The notes under the pieces were generated by a model. It made no database searches. It had not been told where the DNA came from and saw only the letters and a list, made by a program, of their open reading frames with translations. From positions 1 through 37,282 of the forward strand of contig JAJRTA010000032.1 in NCBI GenBank assembly GCA_024278515.1: 37,282 nt of DNA. Direction: 5' to 3'. Origin of the DNA: Candidatus Zixiibacteriota bacterium (GTDB lineage Bacteria > Zixibacteria > MSB-5A5 > GN15 > FEB-12). Positions 561 through 29,707 of the stretch are shown here, in pieces. Numbering within the stretch: the stretch's first letter is position 1; each line of letters begins with the position of its first letter. The position numbers were made by a program, and so were the translations under genes.

Positions 561-570
561 TGAAGTGAGT

Positions 571-1365
571 ATGCGGACGGTCACGTTCATAATCGTCATT
601 TGCGCCCTGCTGACAGTGTCAGCATCACTTCACGCTGTCGATCTGCCGGCAACCCCGTTGCAGGACAGGTTTGCCGCAATGGGCAGACAGTCCGGGTTGT
701 CACAACCGGTCTACCTCGCATCCAACGGCAACTCCGGCGGACTCTGGGGCGACCGGGGAAAACCGGATCGCAAGTCGGTCGGAAAGGCTCTCCTGTACTC
801 GGCTTTACTGCCGGGGATGGGTGAATACTATGTGGGCAATCGCAAAAAAGCCCGGTATTTCTTCGCTGTCGAGGCTGTCTCGTGGCTTGGTTTCCTGTCG
901 TTTCACATGTACGGAAACTGGAAAGAAGATGACTATATCAATTTCGCGCGGGCACGGGCGGATGCCCGGCTCGAAGATAAAAGTGATGAGTTTCGTGACT
1001 GGGTCGGATTTTACGATGATATCGACCAGTTCAACGAACTCGGCCGCGTACAGGATCGGGACCGTCCCTATCTGGTGGATAATGAATCGAACCACTGGCG
1101 CTGGCGCAACCGGAGTGATAAGGCGGCCTACCGTGAAATTAAAAACCGCAGCCGGGAGGCGTTTCGCAGGCGTGATTTTACTATCGGCCTGATGATAATA
1201 AACCGGGTCGTGTCGGTTATCGATGCGGTTCATGACGCCCGCAAGTCCCGCCGGTTATTCGGGAGCTCAACCGACAATGACTCCCGGCGCTTCGGATATC
1301 GGCTGGATATCGATCCGTTCAGTGCTGATCAACAAGTCAGGCTGGCGCTTCTGGCACGTTTTTAG
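571..1365 (+). CDS. DUF5683-like exported membrane protein
   Basis: Predicted 264 residues from the ATG at 571; a GTG at 565 is an in-frame alternative giving two more residues. The N-terminus (MRTVTFIIVICALLTVSASLHA) is a clear signal peptide with cleavage likely after HA. Near residue 75 comes a hydrophobic stretch with ALLPGMGEYYVGNRKKA, a Pro-Gly-x-Gly-x-Tyr pattern typical of DUF5683 and related small-loop membrane proteins, followed by another hydrophobic segment (YFFAVEAVSWLGFLSFHMYG). The middle is highly charged (Arg, Asp), and the C-terminus (DQQVRLALLARF) ends with an aromatic like a barrel strand. It sits between a similar truncated gene and an NHL lipoprotein in an envelope cluster. 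Exact function is unknown for this family. Confidence 0.7.
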   Translation: MRTVTFIIVICALLTVSASLHAVDLPATPLQDRFAAMGRQSGLSQPVYLASNGNSGGLWGDRGKPDRKSVGKALLYSALLPGMGEYYVGNRKKARYFFAVEAVSWLGFLSFHMYGNWKEDDYINFARARADARLEDKSDEFRDWVGFYDDIDQFNELGRVQDRDRPYLVDNESNHWRWRNRSDKAAYREIKNRSREAFRRRDFTIGLMIINRVVSVIDAVHDARKSRRLFGSSTDNDSRRFGYRLDIDPFSADQQVRLALLARF

Positions 1366-1388: not shown

Positions 1389-2342
1389 ATGTATCGTTTC
1401 CTGACACCGCTGCTCCTTCTGTTAATCTCCTGTTCTCCCGGCCCCCGCAGCGGCGCGGAGCTGCTGTTGGATATCAGGGTGCCGACGGCTGTTATTGTTG
1501 ATCAGGTTATTGAAGGCAATATCCTCGGACAACGCCTCAACAACCCCTACAGTGTGGCGGTAGCCTCCGACGGAAGCTGGTACCTGGTCGACAACGGCAA
1601 CCATCGCATCATCTGTTTCGACGCCGCCATGAAACCGGTCCGGCAAACCGGCGGATACGGTTTTTCAGCCGGATTGCTCAACCACCCGGGGCGCATCACT
1701 CTTGACAATGATCTTAATTTATTGGTAGCCGATGAAGGCAACCGCAGAATAGTGCGCTATGATACCCGACTGAATTATGTGGATGAAATTGAACTGCGCG
1801 ATGACGATGACCCGTTCCGGTATGGCCGTCCCGCCGGTCTTTCGGTCACGGAGTACGGTGAAGTATGGGTGGCCGACGCCGATCAGGATCGTCTGATCGT
1901 ATTCGATAACGTCGGCAATTTCAACCGTTTTATCGGCGATTTCGGCTACGGCGGCGGACAGCTTTCCCGACCGGGCGAGGTGCTGCTCGACCGCAGGGGA
2001 GAGTTTCTTGTTTGTGATCGTGGGGGTTCCCGTCTGGTGCGATATGATTCATACGGCAGTTTTATCGACGAACTGGCGATCGACGGCATCGTTTCTCCGA
2101 ACGCGGCGGCTGCAGATAAAGGCCTGCTCTGGGTTCTCGATGATACCAACGGCCGTCTTGCCTGCTGCACCCGCCGGAGCGGCTGTCAGTTGTTGACGAC
2201 AGGACCAACTCTGGTCGGCAGTCATGTCAGCATGAACAATCCGCGTGACGTTGATGTAGCCAAAGACGGCCGCCTTATGATTGTCGACAGCGGCAATAAC
2301 CGTATCCTGCTCTGTCGTCTTCTCTATGATGAGCCGGATTGA
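1389..2342 (+). CDS. NHL-repeat beta-propeller lipoprotein
   Basis: The 317-residue product begins with a lipoprotein signal (MYRFLTPLLLLLISC), with Cys15 as the likely lipidated residue. The rest is six repeats of the NHL type, each ending in a D-x-G/x-N-x-R-[IL] strand: VDNGNHRI, ADEGNRRI, ADADQDRL, CDRGGSRL, LDDTNGRL and VDSGNNRI. Six repeats would close one propeller. Such domains bind protein or other ligands and usually have no catalytic role; nothing here indicates an enzyme. A GAGG sequence lies just upstream of the ATG. The 3' end overlaps the start of the large outer-membrane gene by about 14 nt, so the two are probably translated together. A periplasmic or surface accessory role for that barrel is inference. 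Confidence 0.85.
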   Translation: MYRFLTPLLLLLISCSPGPRSGAELLLDIRVPTAVIVDQVIEGNILGQRLNNPYSVAVASDGSWYLVDNGNHRIICFDAAMKPVRQTGGYGFSAGLLNHPGRITLDNDLNLLVADEGNRRIVRYDTRLNYVDEIELRDDDDPFRYGRPAGLSVTEYGEVWVADADQDRLIVFDNVGNFNRFIGDFGYGGGQLSRPGEVLLDRRGEFLVCDRGGSRLVRYDSYGSFIDELAIDGIVSPNAAAADKGLLWVLDDTNGRLACCTRRSGCQLLTTGPTLVGSHVSMNNPRDVDVAKDGRLMIVDSGNNRILLCRLLYDEPD

Positions 2343-5300
2343 ACCCACATCCCGACACTATGTCGCTTCCCTGAGTTCCCGTTTAATTCGTAGTCTGTAC
2401 TTTCAGTTGTTCGTTCTTGGTATAGTCGGACTGATACCATGCCTGTCCGACGCTGAACCGGTTGAGCAGATACTGACAGGCCGCGATATACCCAAACGTA
2501 TTTTCATCGGTTCATCATTTATTTTCAGTGAATCCGATTCGCTCTTTCTAAGCGGGACAAGACTGAAGCGCGGGATTGATTACCGGATAAGAACAGGGCG
2601 GGGCGTAATCGAACTGATCTCGCTGAAGCCGGCTGATCACGATACTCTGATCGTCAGGTATAACAGACTCCCCGTCTGGTTGCAGACCTCGTACGGCAAC
2701 CCCGTGCCTGTCATATCGGAAACAGACCGGTCTCCGGTTGAGGAGCAGCCTCATATTTTCACACCCGGACTTTCGCGGGATCGTACCGGTCTCACTCTGA
2801 CGGGGGCCAAGAGTTTTCGCTTCATGGCTCGCACCGACGGACCGTCCGAGTTCAGTCAGTCGCTTGATCTTTCGGTCGAAGGGAAATTGTCACCCGGCGT
2901 GACACTGACCGGAACTGTGTCGGATCGCGGTTATAATCCATCCTACGGCACCGCCGACAGTCGCCTGAACGAGCTTGATAAAGTGCGTCTGACTTTACAG
3001 TCGGCCAGTGTTACGGCACAGGTGGGTGATCTGACTCTGGAGAATCGCATGACGGGCGGTACTTTGCAGCCACGTACGCTGTCCGGAGCCGGGTTCAGCG
3101 TGAAAAAAGAGAAGTGGTATGTGCATGGAGTCGCGGCCCGTCCCCGGGGAAGGTATGAATCGACGGAATTCTTCGGCGAGGACGGCTTGCAGGGGCCTTA
3201 TTACATTAATAATGGCAGTCGCGCTCTTCCGATCGTACCGGGGTCGGAGATTGTCTGGCTCGACGGCGAACAACTGAAGCGGGGGATCTCCTCAGATTAT
3301 GAGATCGACTATCCGACCGGCAGTATAACGTTCAATGTCAACCGGCCGATCGACAAACGCAGCCGCATCGAAGTTGATTACGAACCGCTGACATCTGATT
3401 ACAAGGGAGAACTGCTGGCAAGCGGCGGAGGTGTCACGCTCGGTGATTCTGTCGTATCAGTCGAGTTTGAGTTCCGGCGTGATGGAGACGACAAAGAACA
3501 GCCGCTTTTCGGCGAGCTGAATGAAACGGACAGGCAACTGCTCTCACAGGCCGGAGACAGTACGGCCAGAGCGGTTCGCTCCGGTGTAGTTGCCGACAGT
3601 TCGGGGAACTATGTTCTGGTGCAGTCCAGCCTTCCCGATACGGTGTTTCAATATGTCGGTGAGGGTATGGGGGAGTACAGGGTAACGTTCAGTTTTGTCG
3701 GACCGGGCGTCGGGAGTTACCGATTTCTGGGCGGCAGCCGTTATGAATATGTGGGTGTCGGGCTGGGTGACTATGTTCCGGTGCGGTTGCTGGCGATGCC
3801 TGAGCGGTTTGACTATGCCCGGCTCAGGTTAGGTTGGAATAACAGCATCACCGGCAGAATTGCCGTCGATTTCAGACAGAGCGCAACTGACAGGAATCTT
3901 TTTTCAACGTTTGATGATTACGACAACCAGGGACAATACTACCGGCTTGCAGCCCAAAGACAGTTCGATCCGCGCAACAGTCTGAAACTGTCGGTCCGGC
4001 GTCGGGATAAAGAGTTTGTTTCGCTGGAACGGTTGAACATCCCTGAGTTCCGGCGGAGATTTCTGATGCCGTTGCAGTACACACCCGAGAGAGACGAGAC
4101 ACTGGTTGAGTCGGACGCAACATTCCGGCCGCTGGAACACCTTACAGTCAACACGCAATTCAACCATATCGCTTACACCGACCTGTTCAACTCCAGTCAG
4201 GGAAGCATGGGGGTCATCTTCAGCCCTTCAGATGATGTCGAACTGGCTTTCACCGCCGGCGGGATCAGGTCGGAATTGTCCGACAGCAACACAATCCTGA
4301 ATGGTAACGGTGAGAATCTGAACGGAAGACTACGAGCCAGAATATACCGTCAGACTGTCTTGACCTCTTCACTGGAATCTGATAATCGTAAAAATCTTTA
4401 CTCAGGGGTTGCAAAGGGAACAAGATACCTGCAATCAACGACCGGCCTGGAAACATCGACTGAACAGCTTCAATATGAATATTACCGCGAGGACAGCCTG
4501 ATATCCGGCTGGAGCGACCTGCTCACCCGGCACCGGGTGAAACTAAGCTCGGATCGCAGGATAGGCGGCTGGTCATACCGGCTGAATATTACACAGCAGT
4601 GGCTGAAGACAATTGATCTGGATGAGAAGAATTTTCTCGGACGTTTAGGCTATCGTTATCACAACCCACAAAAGAGGGAGACCATCGAGGGCGTCTATAC
4701 GATCTCGACCGAGTCTCGTTACGCCCGGGGTGTCGCCTACTTTGAAGTGGAACCAGGCCGTGGCGATTTCATTCTGGAAGATTCGGTGTATGTGCCGGAT
4801 CCGGACGGGAATTATATACAGGTCGATCAGATTCTGTCGGGACAGTCACGAGTACGTCGCGGGGAGAAAAGTTTCGCTTATCGAAAAGAATGGCCTCATG
4901 CTTATTTCCGAATGAATTCGCGAATTAATGAAGAGCTGATGGAAGAAGGAGAGCGCAAACTATCGTGGATTGTGCCGTTTATCTCCGATGAATCTCAACC
5001 GTACCTGTACTACCAGCGAAGATTCGATGCCGACTTCCGGTTCTGGAAAGTGCGTCACTTCCATGTGATCAATATTTTGAACCAGAAGAACGTTGAACGC
5101 CGTCTGATCGCCGACCGAACGCGCAGTCGCAGGCATGAACAAAGTATCCTGATTTTGAAACAGGCGCCCGGCCGTACTTTTCTGGAGCAAAGGCTGGAGC
5201 TGTTTGTAATTGAACGCGATCAGTATTTCGGCGGGGCCGGTGTAATCGACGGGTTCAAAGCCGCTTTATCGGCTACCTGCCGGTTTGCCTCATCCGAGTT

Positions 5301-5634
5301 GACATTCGGTGGGAGCTATCGGCGAGCCAGGGACGACACCGGCGAGCTTTCGCAACTTTACAGCACGCTGTTTGAATCGCGATTGCAGTTTCTCAGACGG
5401 GGCGAGTTGCGCACGTCGCTGGAACTGTACAGCCAGCAACTGGATAATGTCACCGGCGTACCTTCCTACTCGCTCACCGACAACAAACCGGGCAGGCGGG
5501 GAGCGGTCTGGTCGGTGAAACTGAATTATGGTGTGAAGGGGAAGCTGCGGCTGAATTTCTCTCTGACCGGGCGGCACGCCGACAACCGCACGGCCCGCGT
5601 AACCGGTCGAACCGAAATGGTGGCAGGTTTCTGA
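2329..5634 (+). CDS. Large outer-membrane beta-rich protein, SprA-reminiscent
   Basis: About 1,101 residues from the ATG at 2329 (an adjacent ATG is at 2326; a TTG further upstream is embedded in the NHL gene and is unlikely). An N-terminal hydrophobic segment (FQLFVLGIVGLIPCLSDA) acts as a signal peptide preceded by a basic stretch. Then come beta-rich modules with TGAKSFRF, SQSLDLSVEGKLSPGV and an LNELDKVRLTLQSASV-type segment, a pattern I associate with the N-terminal part of SprA-like outer-membrane proteins of the FCB group. Tyr-Val-Gly-x-Gly-x-Gly-[DE]-Tyr blocks follow at about residues 440-490. The last ~600 residues alternate polar and hydrophobic positions with many Tyr/Arg and end in Phe, like a big transmembrane barrel. 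The stop overlaps the TamA-like gene. The SprA relationship is from memory of motifs; transport function is inferred. Confidence 0.65.
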   Translation: MSRIEPTSRHYVASLSSRLIRSLYFQLFVLGIVGLIPCLSDAEPVEQILTGRDIPKRIFIGSSFIFSESDSLFLSGTRLKRGIDYRIRTGRGVIELISLKPADHDTLIVRYNRLPVWLQTSYGNPVPVISETDRSPVEEQPHIFTPGLSRDRTGLTLTGAKSFRFMARTDGPSEFSQSLDLSVEGKLSPGVTLTGTVSDRGYNPSYGTADSRLNELDKVRLTLQSASVTAQVGDLTLENRMTGGTLQPRTLSGAGFSVKKEKWYVHGVAARPRGRYESTEFFGEDGLQGPYYINNGSRALPIVPGSEIVWLDGEQLKRGISSDYEIDYPTGSITFNVNRPIDKRSRIEVDYEPLTSDYKGELLASGGGVTLGDSVVSVEFEFRRDGDDKEQPLFGELNETDRQLLSQAGDSTARAVRSGVVADSSGNYVLVQSSLPDTVFQYVGEGMGEYRVTFSFVGPGVGSYRFLGGSRYEYVGVGLGDYVPVRLLAMPERFDYARLRLGWNNSITGRIAVDFRQSATDRNLFSTFDDYDNQGQYYRLAAQRQFDPRNSLKLSVRRRDKEFVSLERLNIPEFRRRFLMPLQYTPERDETLVESDATFRPLEHLTVNTQFNHIAYTDLFNSSQGSMGVIFSPSDDVELAFTAGGIRSELSDSNTILNGNGENLNGRLRARIYRQTVLTSSLESDNRKNLYSGVAKGTRYLQSTTGLETSTEQLQYEYYREDSLISGWSDLLTRHRVKLSSDRRIGGWSYRLNITQQWLKTIDLDEKNFLGRLGYRYHNPQKRETIEGVYTISTESRYARGVAYFEVEPGRGDFILEDSVYVPDPDGNYIQVDQILSGQSRVRRGEKSFAYRKEWPHAYFRMNSRINEELMEEGERKLSWIVPFISDESQPYLYYQRRFDADFRFWKVRHFHVINILNQKNVERRLIADRTRSRRHEQSILILKQAPGRTFLEQRLELFVIERDQYFGGAGVIDGFKAALSATCRFASSELTFGGSYRRARDDTGELSQLYSTLFESRLQFLRRGELRTSLELYSQQLDNVTGVPSYSLTDNKPGRRGAVWSVKLNYGVKGKLRLNFSLTGRHADNRTARVTGRTEMVAGF

Positions 5635-7268
5635 TGCAAGCGTTTCGCAACATACTCTTTGGGCTGGTGATTTTCGCCGCCGGACAATCTGTCATGGCAA
5701 CAGAACTGGTCTGGGTGCATGATCGACCAGCCAACGCTCGACTTATCGAACGGCTGGCCGGGGCACCGTTGCCGTTACAGTCCAAAGCCGATAGTGTGGT
5801 CACCATTTTACAGGTTCATGGATACCTCGACGGACGAGTTACAGCACGCGGTGACAGTCTGCTGGTACAATCCGGGCGACGGTTCCTGCTGGATCGAATC
5901 ATTGTAACGGGCGACAGTTCGATAGAACTATCCGCCGACGGTTTCTTCACAGCCCGAAATGTCAAAGAACATCTTGATAAGCTTATTGATCAACAGGTCG
6001 AAAAGGGGTTCTATTATGCAAACCTGCAGGTCACCGAGGTTGTCGAAAAAAACAACTCGATCCTGATTCATGCGTCGTTGAACCGCGGTCCGGTTGTTAC
6101 GGTAGCGAAAGTACGTTTCGAAGGATTAAAGCGGAGCAACCCGGAACTGCTCAGGAAGTTGCTGCCGGTAAACAGCGGCGATACTCTGACCGGCGAACTG
6201 ATCAGACAGATTGAGAACGAAGCGCAACAGATGGAGCATCTGGTTTTCATTCCTCCGGTGAAAATCAAACCCCGGTCGGGTTACACCGGGGCCGAGCTTG
6301 TGCTTGAGTTTGTCGAGAAGAAACAGTTGCAGGTCGAAGGGTCGGGCGGCTATATCCCGCGTGAATCGGTCGGGCTGGTCTGGTCGCTCCGAGCAGCCTT
6401 TACCAGCCTGTTCGGAGAGGGGCGGCGAGCGGAACTGTTCACCGAGCGTGTCGAGTATGGCCGCAACATCCTCGATTTAAGCTATCATCAGCCGATGACA
6501 CTGGCCGGACAGGGACGGTTGGGTGTTCGCGTAACTACTCGTGACTACCGGGATCGGTTCTACGAGTTCAGCGCCGGAGCAGATTACTTTGCGCAGTTGT
6601 CCACCGGCTGGGCGGCTGGGCTGGGAATCACGTACCGGGCAGTGACCCCGGAAAATGACCTCCCTTCATTTATAAGCTACACTGCGGAACTATCCAGCCG
6701 TCAGCGTACGATGTATCCCCGATACAATCCACGCACCGGCTGGCTGCTGGACTGGTCTGTCTCATACACCCACCGAAAGTACCATCAGGACAGCCTTACA
6801 CCGGGAATAGAGCGGCCTATTCTTAACGACCAACGGGCGGTAATAGATATTCAGAACATTCAGCCGCTGTTCGGGCGGTTTATTGTCCGGACCGGGCTGA
6901 GTTACCGTGGATACTTTACCGCCGAAGCGCTCCCTCCGGTTTCGGAACTCTACCTGATCGGCGGGCCGCCCAGTCTGCGCGGATATCGCAACGAAAACTT
7001 CCCGGCTGTACACGCGGTGACAGGGACGGTCGAGCCACGCTTCCGTTTTGCCGACGGTTACCTCTATCTTTTTTATGACGGCGCTTATCTTAACAACCGA
7101 AGCGCCGCAGACAGTATTGTCTCGACCGAAGAGATATATCGTAACGGCTTCGGTTGCGGATTAGCGGTTGCACAACCGGGTCGGAGTGTCCGTCTTTCGC
7201 TCGGCTGGAATCCGGACCTGGCATTTGATCAGCCCCGCTTATCGATCGAGTTCTCAGCAGATATCTAA
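5634..7268 (+). CDS. Omp85-family outer-membrane protein (TamA/BamA-like)
   Basis: A 544-residue protein with signal peptide MQAFRNILFGLVIFAAGQSVMA. Residues about 25-230 hold POTRA-like units, e.g. GPVVTVAKVRFEGLKRSNPE followed by a second strand pair ending in AELVLEFVEKKQ. From about residue 230 the sequence alternates as a 16-strand barrel would, with the Omp85 loop-6 signature SLRGYRNENF near residue 447, in which the Arg-Gly-Tyr is the conserved lock motif. It is shorter than BamA (usually five POTRAs, ~800 residues) and matches TamA/BamA-like proteins with two or three POTRAs. Its start codon overlaps the preceding stop (TGATG), coupling it to the large barrel gene; it may assist insertion of that partner, but this is inference. 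Confidence 0.85.
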   Translation: MQAFRNILFGLVIFAAGQSVMATELVWVHDRPANARLIERLAGAPLPLQSKADSVVTILQVHGYLDGRVTARGDSLLVQSGRRFLLDRIIVTGDSSIELSADGFFTARNVKEHLDKLIDQQVEKGFYYANLQVTEVVEKNNSILIHASLNRGPVVTVAKVRFEGLKRSNPELLRKLLPVNSGDTLTGELIRQIENEAQQMEHLVFIPPVKIKPRSGYTGAELVLEFVEKKQLQVEGSGGYIPRESVGLVWSLRAAFTSLFGEGRRAELFTERVEYGRNILDLSYHQPMTLAGQGRLGVRVTTRDYRDRFYEFSAGADYFAQLSTGWAAGLGITYRAVTPENDLPSFISYTAELSSRQRTMYPRYNPRTGWLLDWSVSYTHRKYHQDSLTPGIERPILNDQRAVIDIQNIQPLFGRFIVRTGLSYRGYFTAEALPPVSELYLIGGPPSLRGYRNENFPAVHAVTGTVEPRFRFADGYLYLFYDGAYLNNRSAADSIVSTEEIYRNGFGCGLAVAQPGRSVRLSLGWNPDLAFDQPRLSIEFSADI

Positions 7269-7305: not shown

Positions 7306-8151
7306 GTGCGCAAACTGATTGACACACTCAGACTTATCCGCTGGATCAACTGTACTATGACCATGTTCGGAGTGGCCCTGGGCGTCCGCATGACGGCATC
7401 CGATATCGCCTGTTACGGCCCGGTAATGGCGGCCATCAGCGCCTTTCTGATCTGCGCGGCCGGGAATATCGTCAACGATCTGGCGGATATCGAAATCGAC
7501 CGCATCAACCGCCCGGACCGGGTTCTGGTCAGTGGCTTGCTCAGTCGAAAGTTCGCCTTTGTTCTTGCCGTTATTATGAATCTTGCCGCGATCGGGGTAG
7601 CTCTGACCGTCAACCCGGCTGTGACGGCACTCGGATTGATTGCGATATTCCTGCTTCTGGCCTACAACCTGAAACTTAAGCAAGTCCCCATTCTGGGGAA
7701 TACGATAATCGGGCTGCTGGCCGGTTTGACATTTATCTCCGGCGGACTGGCGGTGGACACAGCCTCGACTTTCGCTCTTCCCGGGCCGTTGATACCGGCG
7801 ATATTCGCATTCCTTTTTCATCTGGTGCGCGAACTGGTCAAGGATGTGCAGGATATCGACGGGGACAAAACGGCGGGAATCAGGTCAATCCCGCAGATTA
7901 TCGGGATCAGAGCCTCGCTTTGGCTGGCTCTGGGTCTGTATTTGATTTTAGCCGCGGCCAGTTTTATACCGGTTTACTTTGAGTGGTTCGGTCGATACTA
8001 CCGGCTGATTGTTACCTATATTATGAACTTGCCTCTGGGACTGTTTTTATTGTTCATTTGTTTCCGGCCGGATGAAACCGGGCTGAAAGCCCTGTCATGG
8101 GCTTTGAAAATCGGTATGATAGTCGGCTTAGTAGCTGTTTGGGTAGCATAA
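7306..8151 (+). CDS. UbiA-family membrane prenyltransferase
   Basis: 281 residues, with about eight or nine hydrophobic segments. The first Asp-rich motif is NDLADIEIDRINRPDR (about residues 57-72), followed by SG, and the second is KDVQDIDGDKTAGIRSIP (about 179-196). Both bind the Mg-diphosphate of the prenyl donor in UbiA enzymes, which attach isoprenoid chains to an aromatic or glycerol-phosphate acceptor in the cytoplasmic membrane. Length and motif spacing are normal. The acceptor cannot be read from the sequence: menaquinone-type MenA, heme/chlorophyll-type, and geranylgeranylglycerol-phosphate transferases all look similar, and there is no neighbouring quinone gene. The GTG start follows the predicted Met-Arg-Lys N-terminus; an overlapping ATG at 7304 is in another frame. 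Confidence 0.85.
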   Translation: MRKLIDTLRLIRWINCTMTMFGVALGVRMTASDIACYGPVMAAISAFLICAAGNIVNDLADIEIDRINRPDRVLVSGLLSRKFAFVLAVIMNLAAIGVALTVNPAVTALGLIAIFLLLAYNLKLKQVPILGNTIIGLLAGLTFISGGLAVDTASTFALPGPLIPAIFAFLFHLVRELVKDVQDIDGDKTAGIRSIPQIIGIRASLWLALGLYLILAAASFIPVYFEWFGRYYRLIVTYIMNLPLGLFLLFICFRPDETGLKALSWALKIGMIVGLVAVWVA

Positions 8152-28573: not shown

Positions 28574-29707
28574 ATGGTGATAGGCATTACATGTTACCCT
28601 TCGGCCGGCGGTTCCGGTATCGTGGCGACGGAACTGGGACAGCAACTGGCCGCCCGTGGTCATCAGGTTCATTTTGTTTCGTATGCTCTGCCCTTTCGGC
28701 TGGACAAGTTTCAGGCCAACCTGATGTACCACGGTGTTGAGATGACAGCCTATCCGTTGTTCAAATATCCTCCTTACACCCTGACGCTTGCCGCCAAAAT
28801 GGCCGAGGTGGCCCGTGATTTCAAGCTGGACATAATGCATGTTCATTATGCTATCCCCCACGCGATATGCGCCTGGATGGCCAAACAGCTTCTGGAATCG
28901 AACGGCGACTCCAACTCCACCAAAATCATCACCACCCTGCACGGCACCGATATTACATTGGTGGGAGCCGATCCCTCGTACTATGATATCACCCGCTTCT
29001 CAATCAACTGTTCTGACGGGGTGACGGCTGTTTCAAAATATCTCGCCGATGAAACAGCTCAGGTGTTCAGCCTCGACAAAGAAATACGGGTGATTCATAA
29101 TTTCTTCGACGTTAACAGATTCAGACCGGGCGCAACCGAATGTCAACGATCCGAGTTCGCCCCTGAAAATGAATTCCTGATCGCCCATGTGTCCAATTTC
29201 CGCCCGGTGAAAAGAATCATCGATGTAATAGATGTGTTCGAGCGAATCAATCAGGAACTGCCGTCGCGGCTCTTGCTGATCGGCGAAGGACCGGACACGA
29301 TTCTGGCCCGTCGTCAGGTGACCAGGAAAGGTCTTACCGACCGGGTGATTTTCCTCGGTAACCAGAGCCGGGTGGAAGCGGTTATTCCCTGCGCGGATCT
29401 CTTCCTTGTGCCTTCCGAAGAAGAGTCGTTCGGGCTGGCCGCTCTTGAAGCGCTGGCCTGCGGAGTGCCGGTTATCGGTACTTCCGGCACCGGCCTGTCG
29501 GAAGTAGTCGATGATTATCAGAACGGCTTCCTGTTGCCGGTCGGCGACACTTCCGCAATGGCGCGCGCCGCGGTATCGTTGTTGAAAGATACCGAGCGTT
29601 TGAATCTGTTCAAAAAGGCCGCCGCCGAGCGTGCCCGGGCCCGGTTTTCATGTGACAAGATCGTTTCGGAATATGAACAGTTCTATCACGAGATACATGA
29701 TGCCTGA
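28574..29707 (+). CDS. bshA: BshA, N-acetyl-glucosaminyl L-malate synthase
   Basis: 377 residues, GT4 (GT-B fold) glycosyltransferase. The N-terminus IGITCYPSAGGSGIVATELG is typical of BshA, with HVHYAIPHAICAWMAKQ and TTLHGTDITLVGADPSY (about residues 120-136). The donor site has FRPVKRIIDVIDVF and PSEEESFGLAALEALACGVP (about 279-298), the Glu-x7-Glu motif of the GT4 family. It transfers GlcNAc from UDP-GlcNAc to L-malate, the first step of bacillithiol synthesis. The next gene starts within its last codons. Confidence 0.94.
   Translation: MVIGITCYPSAGGSGIVATELGQQLAARGHQVHFVSYALPFRLDKFQANLMYHGVEMTAYPLFKYPPYTLTLAAKMAEVARDFKLDIMHVHYAIPHAICAWMAKQLLESNGDSNSTKIITTLHGTDITLVGADPSYYDITRFSINCSDGVTAVSKYLADETAQVFSLDKEIRVIHNFFDVNRFRPGATECQRSEFAPENEFLIAHVSNFRPVKRIIDVIDVFERINQELPSRLLLIGEGPDTILARRQVTRKGLTDRVIFLGNQSRVEAVIPCADLFLVPSEEESFGLAALEALACGVPVIGTSGTGLSEVVDDYQNGFLLPVGDTSAMARAAVSLLKDTERLNLFKKAAAERARARFSCDKIVSEYEQFYHEIHDA

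Follow-up and report, generated by a model that had tools for sequence, protein, structure and literature searches.

A predicted SprA-like giant outer-membrane barrel paired with an Omp85 protein at the end of a T9SS cluster

In a 37,282-nucleotide stretch of DNA (hereafter the window), which is contig C249 of a 2.86 Mb genome in 257 contigs, we identified a pair of overlapping genes encoding a predicted SprA-like giant outer-membrane barrel (SPL) and a TamA/BamA-like Omp85 protein. Across relatives, the two genes keep the same order, occur side by side, are absent together, and lie in a T9SS neighborhood; the genome of the window also encodes a true SprA. We propose, at about an even chance, that the pair constitutes an accessory T9SS module made up of a distant SprA relative and its dedicated Omp85 assembly partner. 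If true, a second barrel near SprA size that is co-present and co-absent with its own Omp85 would render the outer-membrane insertion of very large barrels testable, along with the question of whether T9SS uses several exits or docking stations in the outer membrane. Within the open-access literature, the pair is named in no title or abstract beginning that we found, and the passages of PMC10994853 and PMC12611786 that were available contain no mention of an SPL–Omp85 component.

Gene organization, pairing, and joint absence

The genes at the start of the window are compiled in Table 1. SPL may alternatively begin at the preceding ATG (2326), and its TGA stop shares one base with the Omp85 ATG in the sequence TGATG (5632–5636). 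The sequence-only reading had described a 1,101-residue beta-rich protein overlapping an Omp85 gene at TGATG, preceded by NHL and DUF5683-like genes; our analysis bears out this arrangement, with SPL modeled as a barrel by AlphaFold2 and the upstream genes recognized by their profiles. ORF1, which has no Pfam match of its own, is DUF5683-type by profile. The NHL protein starts with a stretch ending in LLISC that resembles a lipobox by eye, and the lipobox-like cysteine recurs, under a loose pattern, in 28 of 37 homologues. Downstream of the pair lie UbiA and then a Bat operon; farther along, BshC (bacillithiol biosynthesis, PF10079; 26936–28558) and a glycosyltransferase (28574–29707) follow one another in what seems an ordinary arrangement.

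Table 1. Genes and domains in and around the SPL–Omp85 pair (window coordinates)
Feature	Position	Strand	Basis or remark
ORF1, C-terminal part of a DUF5683-type protein; 5' end off the contig, rest on contig C47	39..560	+	family profile also matches DUF5683-type proteins of other groups
DUF5683 protein	565..1365	+	PF18935, 33.3 bits (cut-off 26.7)
NHL beta-propeller protein, probable lipoprotein	1389..2342	+	PF01436, 79.4 bits
SPL, predicted SprA-like giant outer-membrane barrel, 1101 aa	2329..5634	+	AlphaFold2 pLDDT 84.9; two SprA-type domains
SPL first SprA-type domain, residues ~47–120	2467..2688	+	hhalign against the class SprA profile, P 97.9%, E 3.6e-13
SPL second SprA-type domain and following hairpin, residues 299–388	3223..3492	+	hhalign P 97.1%, E 5.4e-11; TIGR04189 positions 600–652
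Omp85 partner, TamA/BamA-like, 544 aa	5634..7268	+	AlphaFold2 pLDDT 90.4; TamA 4c00, TM 0.68
UbiA prenyltransferase, downstream flank	7306..8151	+	PF01040

Records of the close relatives are mostly labeled Candidatus Zixiibacteriota, some just "bacterium" or candidate division GN15, and once Calditrichota. Omp85 lies directly 3' of SPL in all 38 loci read from the window's class (L035–L072, hand-picked from SPL matches). Outside the class, the comparison covered 13 loci (Fermentibacteria, Fermentibacteraceae, Aegiribacteria, and one Eisenbacteria record); 12 of them extend 600 bases or more beyond SPL, and all 12 show the same arrangement. In an overlapping set of 39 loci from another collection (L077–L115), many of whose genomes are the same as those of the class loci and whose counts are not added to them, 31 leave room for the partner, which comes next in every one of them.

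A first scan of the genome contigs with SPL as a single protein recovered no relative. In the survey of 117 class genomes, SPL was matched at E <= 0.001 in 105, and in 97 (best E 0 to 5.9e-24) after setting aside eight genomes with weak or SprA-domain matches only (G008, G012, G043, G048, G072, G075, G101, and G110; best E 1.5e-9 or weaker), which were scored as lacking SPL; in the first four of these, the matches fall in frames of 1977–2004 aa, the length of SprA. The partner was matched at E <= 1e-30 in 100 of the 117 before set-asides, and was scored absent in G008, G039, G048, G062, and G095, where matches of 121–132 bits fall in BamA/TamA-like frames of 665–850 aa. The resulting tally gives 92 genomes with both genes, 17 with neither, five with SPL only, and three with the partner only. 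All eight discordant genomes have their gene at a contig edge: SPL extends to the contig end in G039, G089, G092, and G095; the bases remaining on the contig are too few for the rest of SPL in G054; the partner begins at the contig start in G103 and G107; and a C-terminal SPL fragment stands at the contig start in G110.

Among the 17 pair-lacking genomes, the corresponding site was fetched in 12 and analyzed in 11 (G048 was fetched only; G012, G034, G062, G101, and G111 fall outside the site reading), of which G016, G043, and G079 end before the site, leaving eight. Both genes are cleanly absent in all eight, with UbiA directly behind NHL or DUF5683. Specifically, NHL, SPL, and Omp85 are absent together between DUF5683 and UbiA in five (G061, a single-contig genome, G072, G075, G080, and G008), whereas only SPL and Omp85 are absent in the three that have NHL next to UbiA (G052, G069, and G076). 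The strongest argument for a single unit is that several families lack precisely these genes. The pair is conserved in relatives, and of the dedicated insertion or secretion module suggested from the tight linkage, the linkage holds, the genes being adjacent wherever both are readable and missing together, while the inserting or secreting role is one that we infer.

The T9SS cluster upstream of the pair

The opening 315 nt of the window are 99.4% identical to the closing 315 nt of contig C47, indicating that the cluster continues upstream on that contig. Its order is porU, a porV-family gene, an M6 gene, two DUF5683-type genes, NHL, SPL, and Omp85, with the pair forming the cluster end. The PorU protein of the genome scores 677.5 bits (cut-off 420) and the upstream PorV/PorQ family protein 228.8 bits (cut-off 90), so that, taking the PorV/PorQ family model for PorV, porU and a porV-family gene occur in the same conserved cluster as SPL. 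This recalls the PorU–PorV sorting complex, both members lying directly upstream and scoring over their cut-offs; unlike a canonical PorV, however, the porV-family protein reaches only 168.6 of the 250 bits that the stricter PorV model demands. A search for other T9SS genes in the genome, which the sequence-only reading had advised, recovered SprA, PorU, the PorV/PorQ family protein, and 35 T9SS tails above cut-off. The targets of the whole-genome searches were SPL, SprA, PorU, T9SS tails, Omp85, TamB, LptD, and M6.

This composition recurs beyond the window. In each of the 30 genomes, of 59, for which both were found on one contig, PorU lies 8.6–10.3 kb upstream of SPL on the same strand, and the loci read have the porV-family and M6 genes between the two. 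Among loci with at least 5.5 kb upstream, M6 is present in 32 of 34 from the class (L047 and L068 are without it at E 1e-10), 17 of 18 from the overlapping set, and 9 of 9 from other groups. Upstream of SPL, six loci of the Fermentibacteria/Aegiribacteria type (L116, L118, L119, L122, L126, and L127) carry a porV-family gene, M6, and a single DUF5683 gene, preceded by the portion of porU that encodes the C terminus; NHL is matched only weakly in such loci, in 3 of 12 non-Eisenbacteria loci. The Eisenbacteria locus (L123) carries porV, M6, both DUF5683-type genes, and NHL; the 1.25 kb read ahead of porV gave no match to PorU. The porU–porV–M6 cluster is thereby documented in the window's class and in Fermentibacteria/Aegiribacteria, and porV–M6 in one Eisenbacteria locus.

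The M6 protein scores 299.4 bits against the NCBIfam model "T9SS-dependent M6-like inactivated metalloprotease" (cut-off 600), and its T9SS tail is borderline, at 26.5 bits in the genome search (C47:28263-28448) and 21.7 bits in the protein scan, with a cut-off of 23. The nearest model is named inactivated, yet the HExxH motif is retained in this protein (L141:10111-13521, C47) and in 58 of 58 homologues of at least 700 aa, some genomes being counted twice. We considered whether M6 might stand in for an absent PorU and rejected this, since PorU matches are found in 59 of 59 genomes, 53 of them above cut-off.

The PorV-family protein on C47 (L141:7352-10099) is 915 aa long, with a stretch of about 580 residues between two PorV pieces; the insert matches a two-component-regulator propeller at 24.2 bits (cut-off 20.4) and, weakly, PorZ at 15.1 bits (cut-off 260), and the protein is possibly a PorV with a PorZ-like insert. 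The 334-aa homologue in L118 is without it. In an Aegiribacteria locus (L119:6253-7914), a 553-aa protein with a metalloprotease-like HELVH, noted by eye, lies between the DUF5683 and propeller genes.

SprA is above cut-off in 16 of the 17 pair-lacking genomes and in seven of eight pair-bearing genomes of other groups. Its retention where the pair is missing indicates that the pair accompanies T9SS and is dispensable for it. The persistence of T9SS genes without the pair would also fit a different interpretation, in which SPL and Omp85 form a separate outer-membrane conduit for lipid, glycan, or another substrate, perhaps with NHL and DUF5683, and their location in the T9SS cluster is incidental. 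The downstream neighbors are indeed non-T9SS genes, NHL is absent with the pair in five of the eight informative loci, and at L068, where the pair and UbiA are present, the upstream stretch read contains no T9SS genes. Against incidental placement, the order porV–M6–DUF5683–SPL–Omp85 recurs in several groups. Bearing also on this interpretation is the relationship of SPL to SprA, as most of the SPL barrel is unlike SprA but the protein contains two SprA-type domains; on balance, we regard a separate conduit as rather unlikely.

Relationship of SPL to SprA

The AlphaFold2 model of SPL (39-row alignment; mean pLDDT 84.9, pTM 0.70) has 37 strands of at least nine residues between residues 154 and 1100. 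The prediction for SPL is a barrel of about 36 strands, and the protein carries a SprA domain twice; SprA is itself described as a 36-strand barrel in the part of PMC10994853 that was available. Foldseek recovers the SprA entries 8gl6, 6h3i, 8gl8, and 6h3j at E 1.5e-6 to 6.9e-6, so that SprA-type barrels are among the structural matches; nevertheless, their TM scores are only 0.20–0.22 and BtuB-type barrels outrank them, meaning that the fold search supports a large barrel and not SprA in particular. With VIA-align, the matches are generic barrels of the usher, AlgE, and OprD types (Z up to 17.3), SprA not being among the 50 matches listed, which does not count against a relationship. SPL has no Pfam family and no PDB relative by sequence; the profile search gave a single match, at E 1.6. 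Three YVGxGxGDY-like motifs, arranged in tandem and conserved among family members, occur at window positions 3640–3783 (SPL ~438–485), between predicted strands 8 and 9.

At the sequence level, the SprA family (TIGR04189) is the only NCBIfam match of SPL at E <= 1 (55 residues, E 5.2e-5), and its 20.6 bits fall well below the curated cut-off of 200. We compared SPL with a SprA profile of the class built from 17 proteins of 1964–2179 aa, both profiles deriving from longest open frames, which leaves extra N-terminal residues in some rows. The internal SprA domain is found twice in SPL (hhalign P 94.7–98.2% across runs), and clear similarity is confined to this domain of about 90 residues in its two copies. 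For the first six strands of SPL, the 39- and 17-row profiles give no significant match to SprA, whereas broader profiles (82 SPL and 28 SprA rows) align their full length with the opening strands of SprA across 134 columns, at E 0.0016 but with a probability of only 15.8%. The score of 26.1 exceeds the maximum of 22.6 among 95 control pairs built from overlapping windows, and a reversed template scores 13.1; we treat this match as suggestive only. Residues ~490–1101 have no similarity to SprA detectable by profile comparison.

Collectively, SPL is probably a distant relative of SprA but is not SprA itself. The likeness to SprA/Sov lies in the shared domain, the approximate predicted strand number, the weak match over the first strands, and the linkage to porU and a porV-family gene. 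In contrast to SprA, SPL has only 1101 aa, most of its barrel is without a sequence match, and it is accompanied by an Omp85 partner gene, SprA itself being encoded elsewhere in the genome. The initial description of the barrel as SprA-reminiscent is accordingly upheld for the two SprA-type domains, the predicted barrel of about 36 strands, and the adjoining T9SS cluster, but not for membership in the SprA family.

Two assignments of SPL within its own genome were rejected. The SprA of the genome is a 2005-aa protein on C117 (607.4 bits, cut-off 200), and a separate LptD match lies on C125 (35.0 bits, cut-off 22.4). The shared domain also turned up on a contig that is phage-like by eye (G000 C135, L074:6408-7388), in a protein matching the SprA model over this domain at 30.3 bits, under the cut-off; hence the domain is not restricted to T9SS and is no proof of a T9SS role.

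The Omp85 partner and candidate roles of the pair

The partner exceeds the Pfam cut-offs for Omp85 (43.2 bits) and POTRA (30.5 bits), and its AlphaFold2 model (pLDDT 90.4) has three POTRAs and 16 barrel strands, as read from the predicted secondary structure. Foldseek ranks TamA and BamA entries first, in keeping with the earlier label of TamA/BamA-like, and by sequence its profile is closest to BamA proteins among PDB entries (E 4e-45). Arg449 is invariant and Gly450 near-invariant. The partner is TamA-like in its three predicted POTRAs and 16-strand barrel, with a TM score of 0.68 to 4c00; unlike TamA, the partner of TamB, it has no TamB beside it and reaches only 16.7 bits against the NCBIfam TamA model (cut-off 625). 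From BamA, it differs in having three predicted POTRAs and in scoring 53.2 bits against TIGR03303 (cut-off 297.15). The genome has seven Omp85-family places, and other genes suit the BamA and TamA assignments better: going by score and length alone, BamA is more likely the 820-aa Omp85 on C109, and the TamB match on C122 adjoins another Omp85 of 654 aa.

In the accessory-module reading, which we consider the most likely, SPL would be a shortened, distant SprA relative composed of a signal peptide, a SprA-type domain ahead of the barrel, some six strands, the second SprA-type domain, and some thirty further strands. The TamA-like Omp85 would be its dedicated assembly partner and would fold or insert a barrel of this unusual size, or remain bound to it. 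Strict pairing is what a dedicated insertase would lead one to expect. Insertion through Omp85 also fits the C-terminal residue of SPL, which is phenylalanine in 33 of 38 homologues, a C-terminal phenylalanine being the residue that usually marks a barrel for insertion by Omp85 proteins. The T9SS cluster, together with the SprA-type domains, points to the pathway: SPL might sit in the outer membrane beside PorV and PorU and act on cargo exported through the true SprA, e.g., as a second exit, or a docking or attachment site. Both the insertion by the partner and the role in T9SS cargo handling are thus what we infer from the gene context and predicted folds.

A bolder version, which we hold tentatively and consider doubtful, is that SPL is a second giant T9SS translocon, i.e., a minimal SprA relative with its own Omp85 assembly factor that, together with PorV, PorU, and NHL, would export or anchor a subset of the cargo. 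Its setting would be deep-branching phyla in which T9SS has hardly been studied; no Zixibacteria in culture are known to us.

The strict pairing and joint absence would also be expected if the Omp85 protein were a structural partner seated at a lateral opening of SPL, as PorV is on SprA, making a two-barrel translocon and not an insertase. We judge this improbable, because the Omp85 layout with three predicted POTRAs is kept and the conservation of Arg449 and Gly450 suggests substrate handling. The adjacency of the two genes could, in turn, be read in terms of two-partner secretion, in which pore and substrate genes are typically adjacent; the Omp85 protein would then be a two-partner-type secretion pore, and SPL or NHL its exported substrates. 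Such an arrangement is very improbable here, as the prediction for SPL is an integral barrel, its homologues mostly have the terminal phenylalanine, and the partner has three predicted POTRAs against the two usual for the two-partner family.
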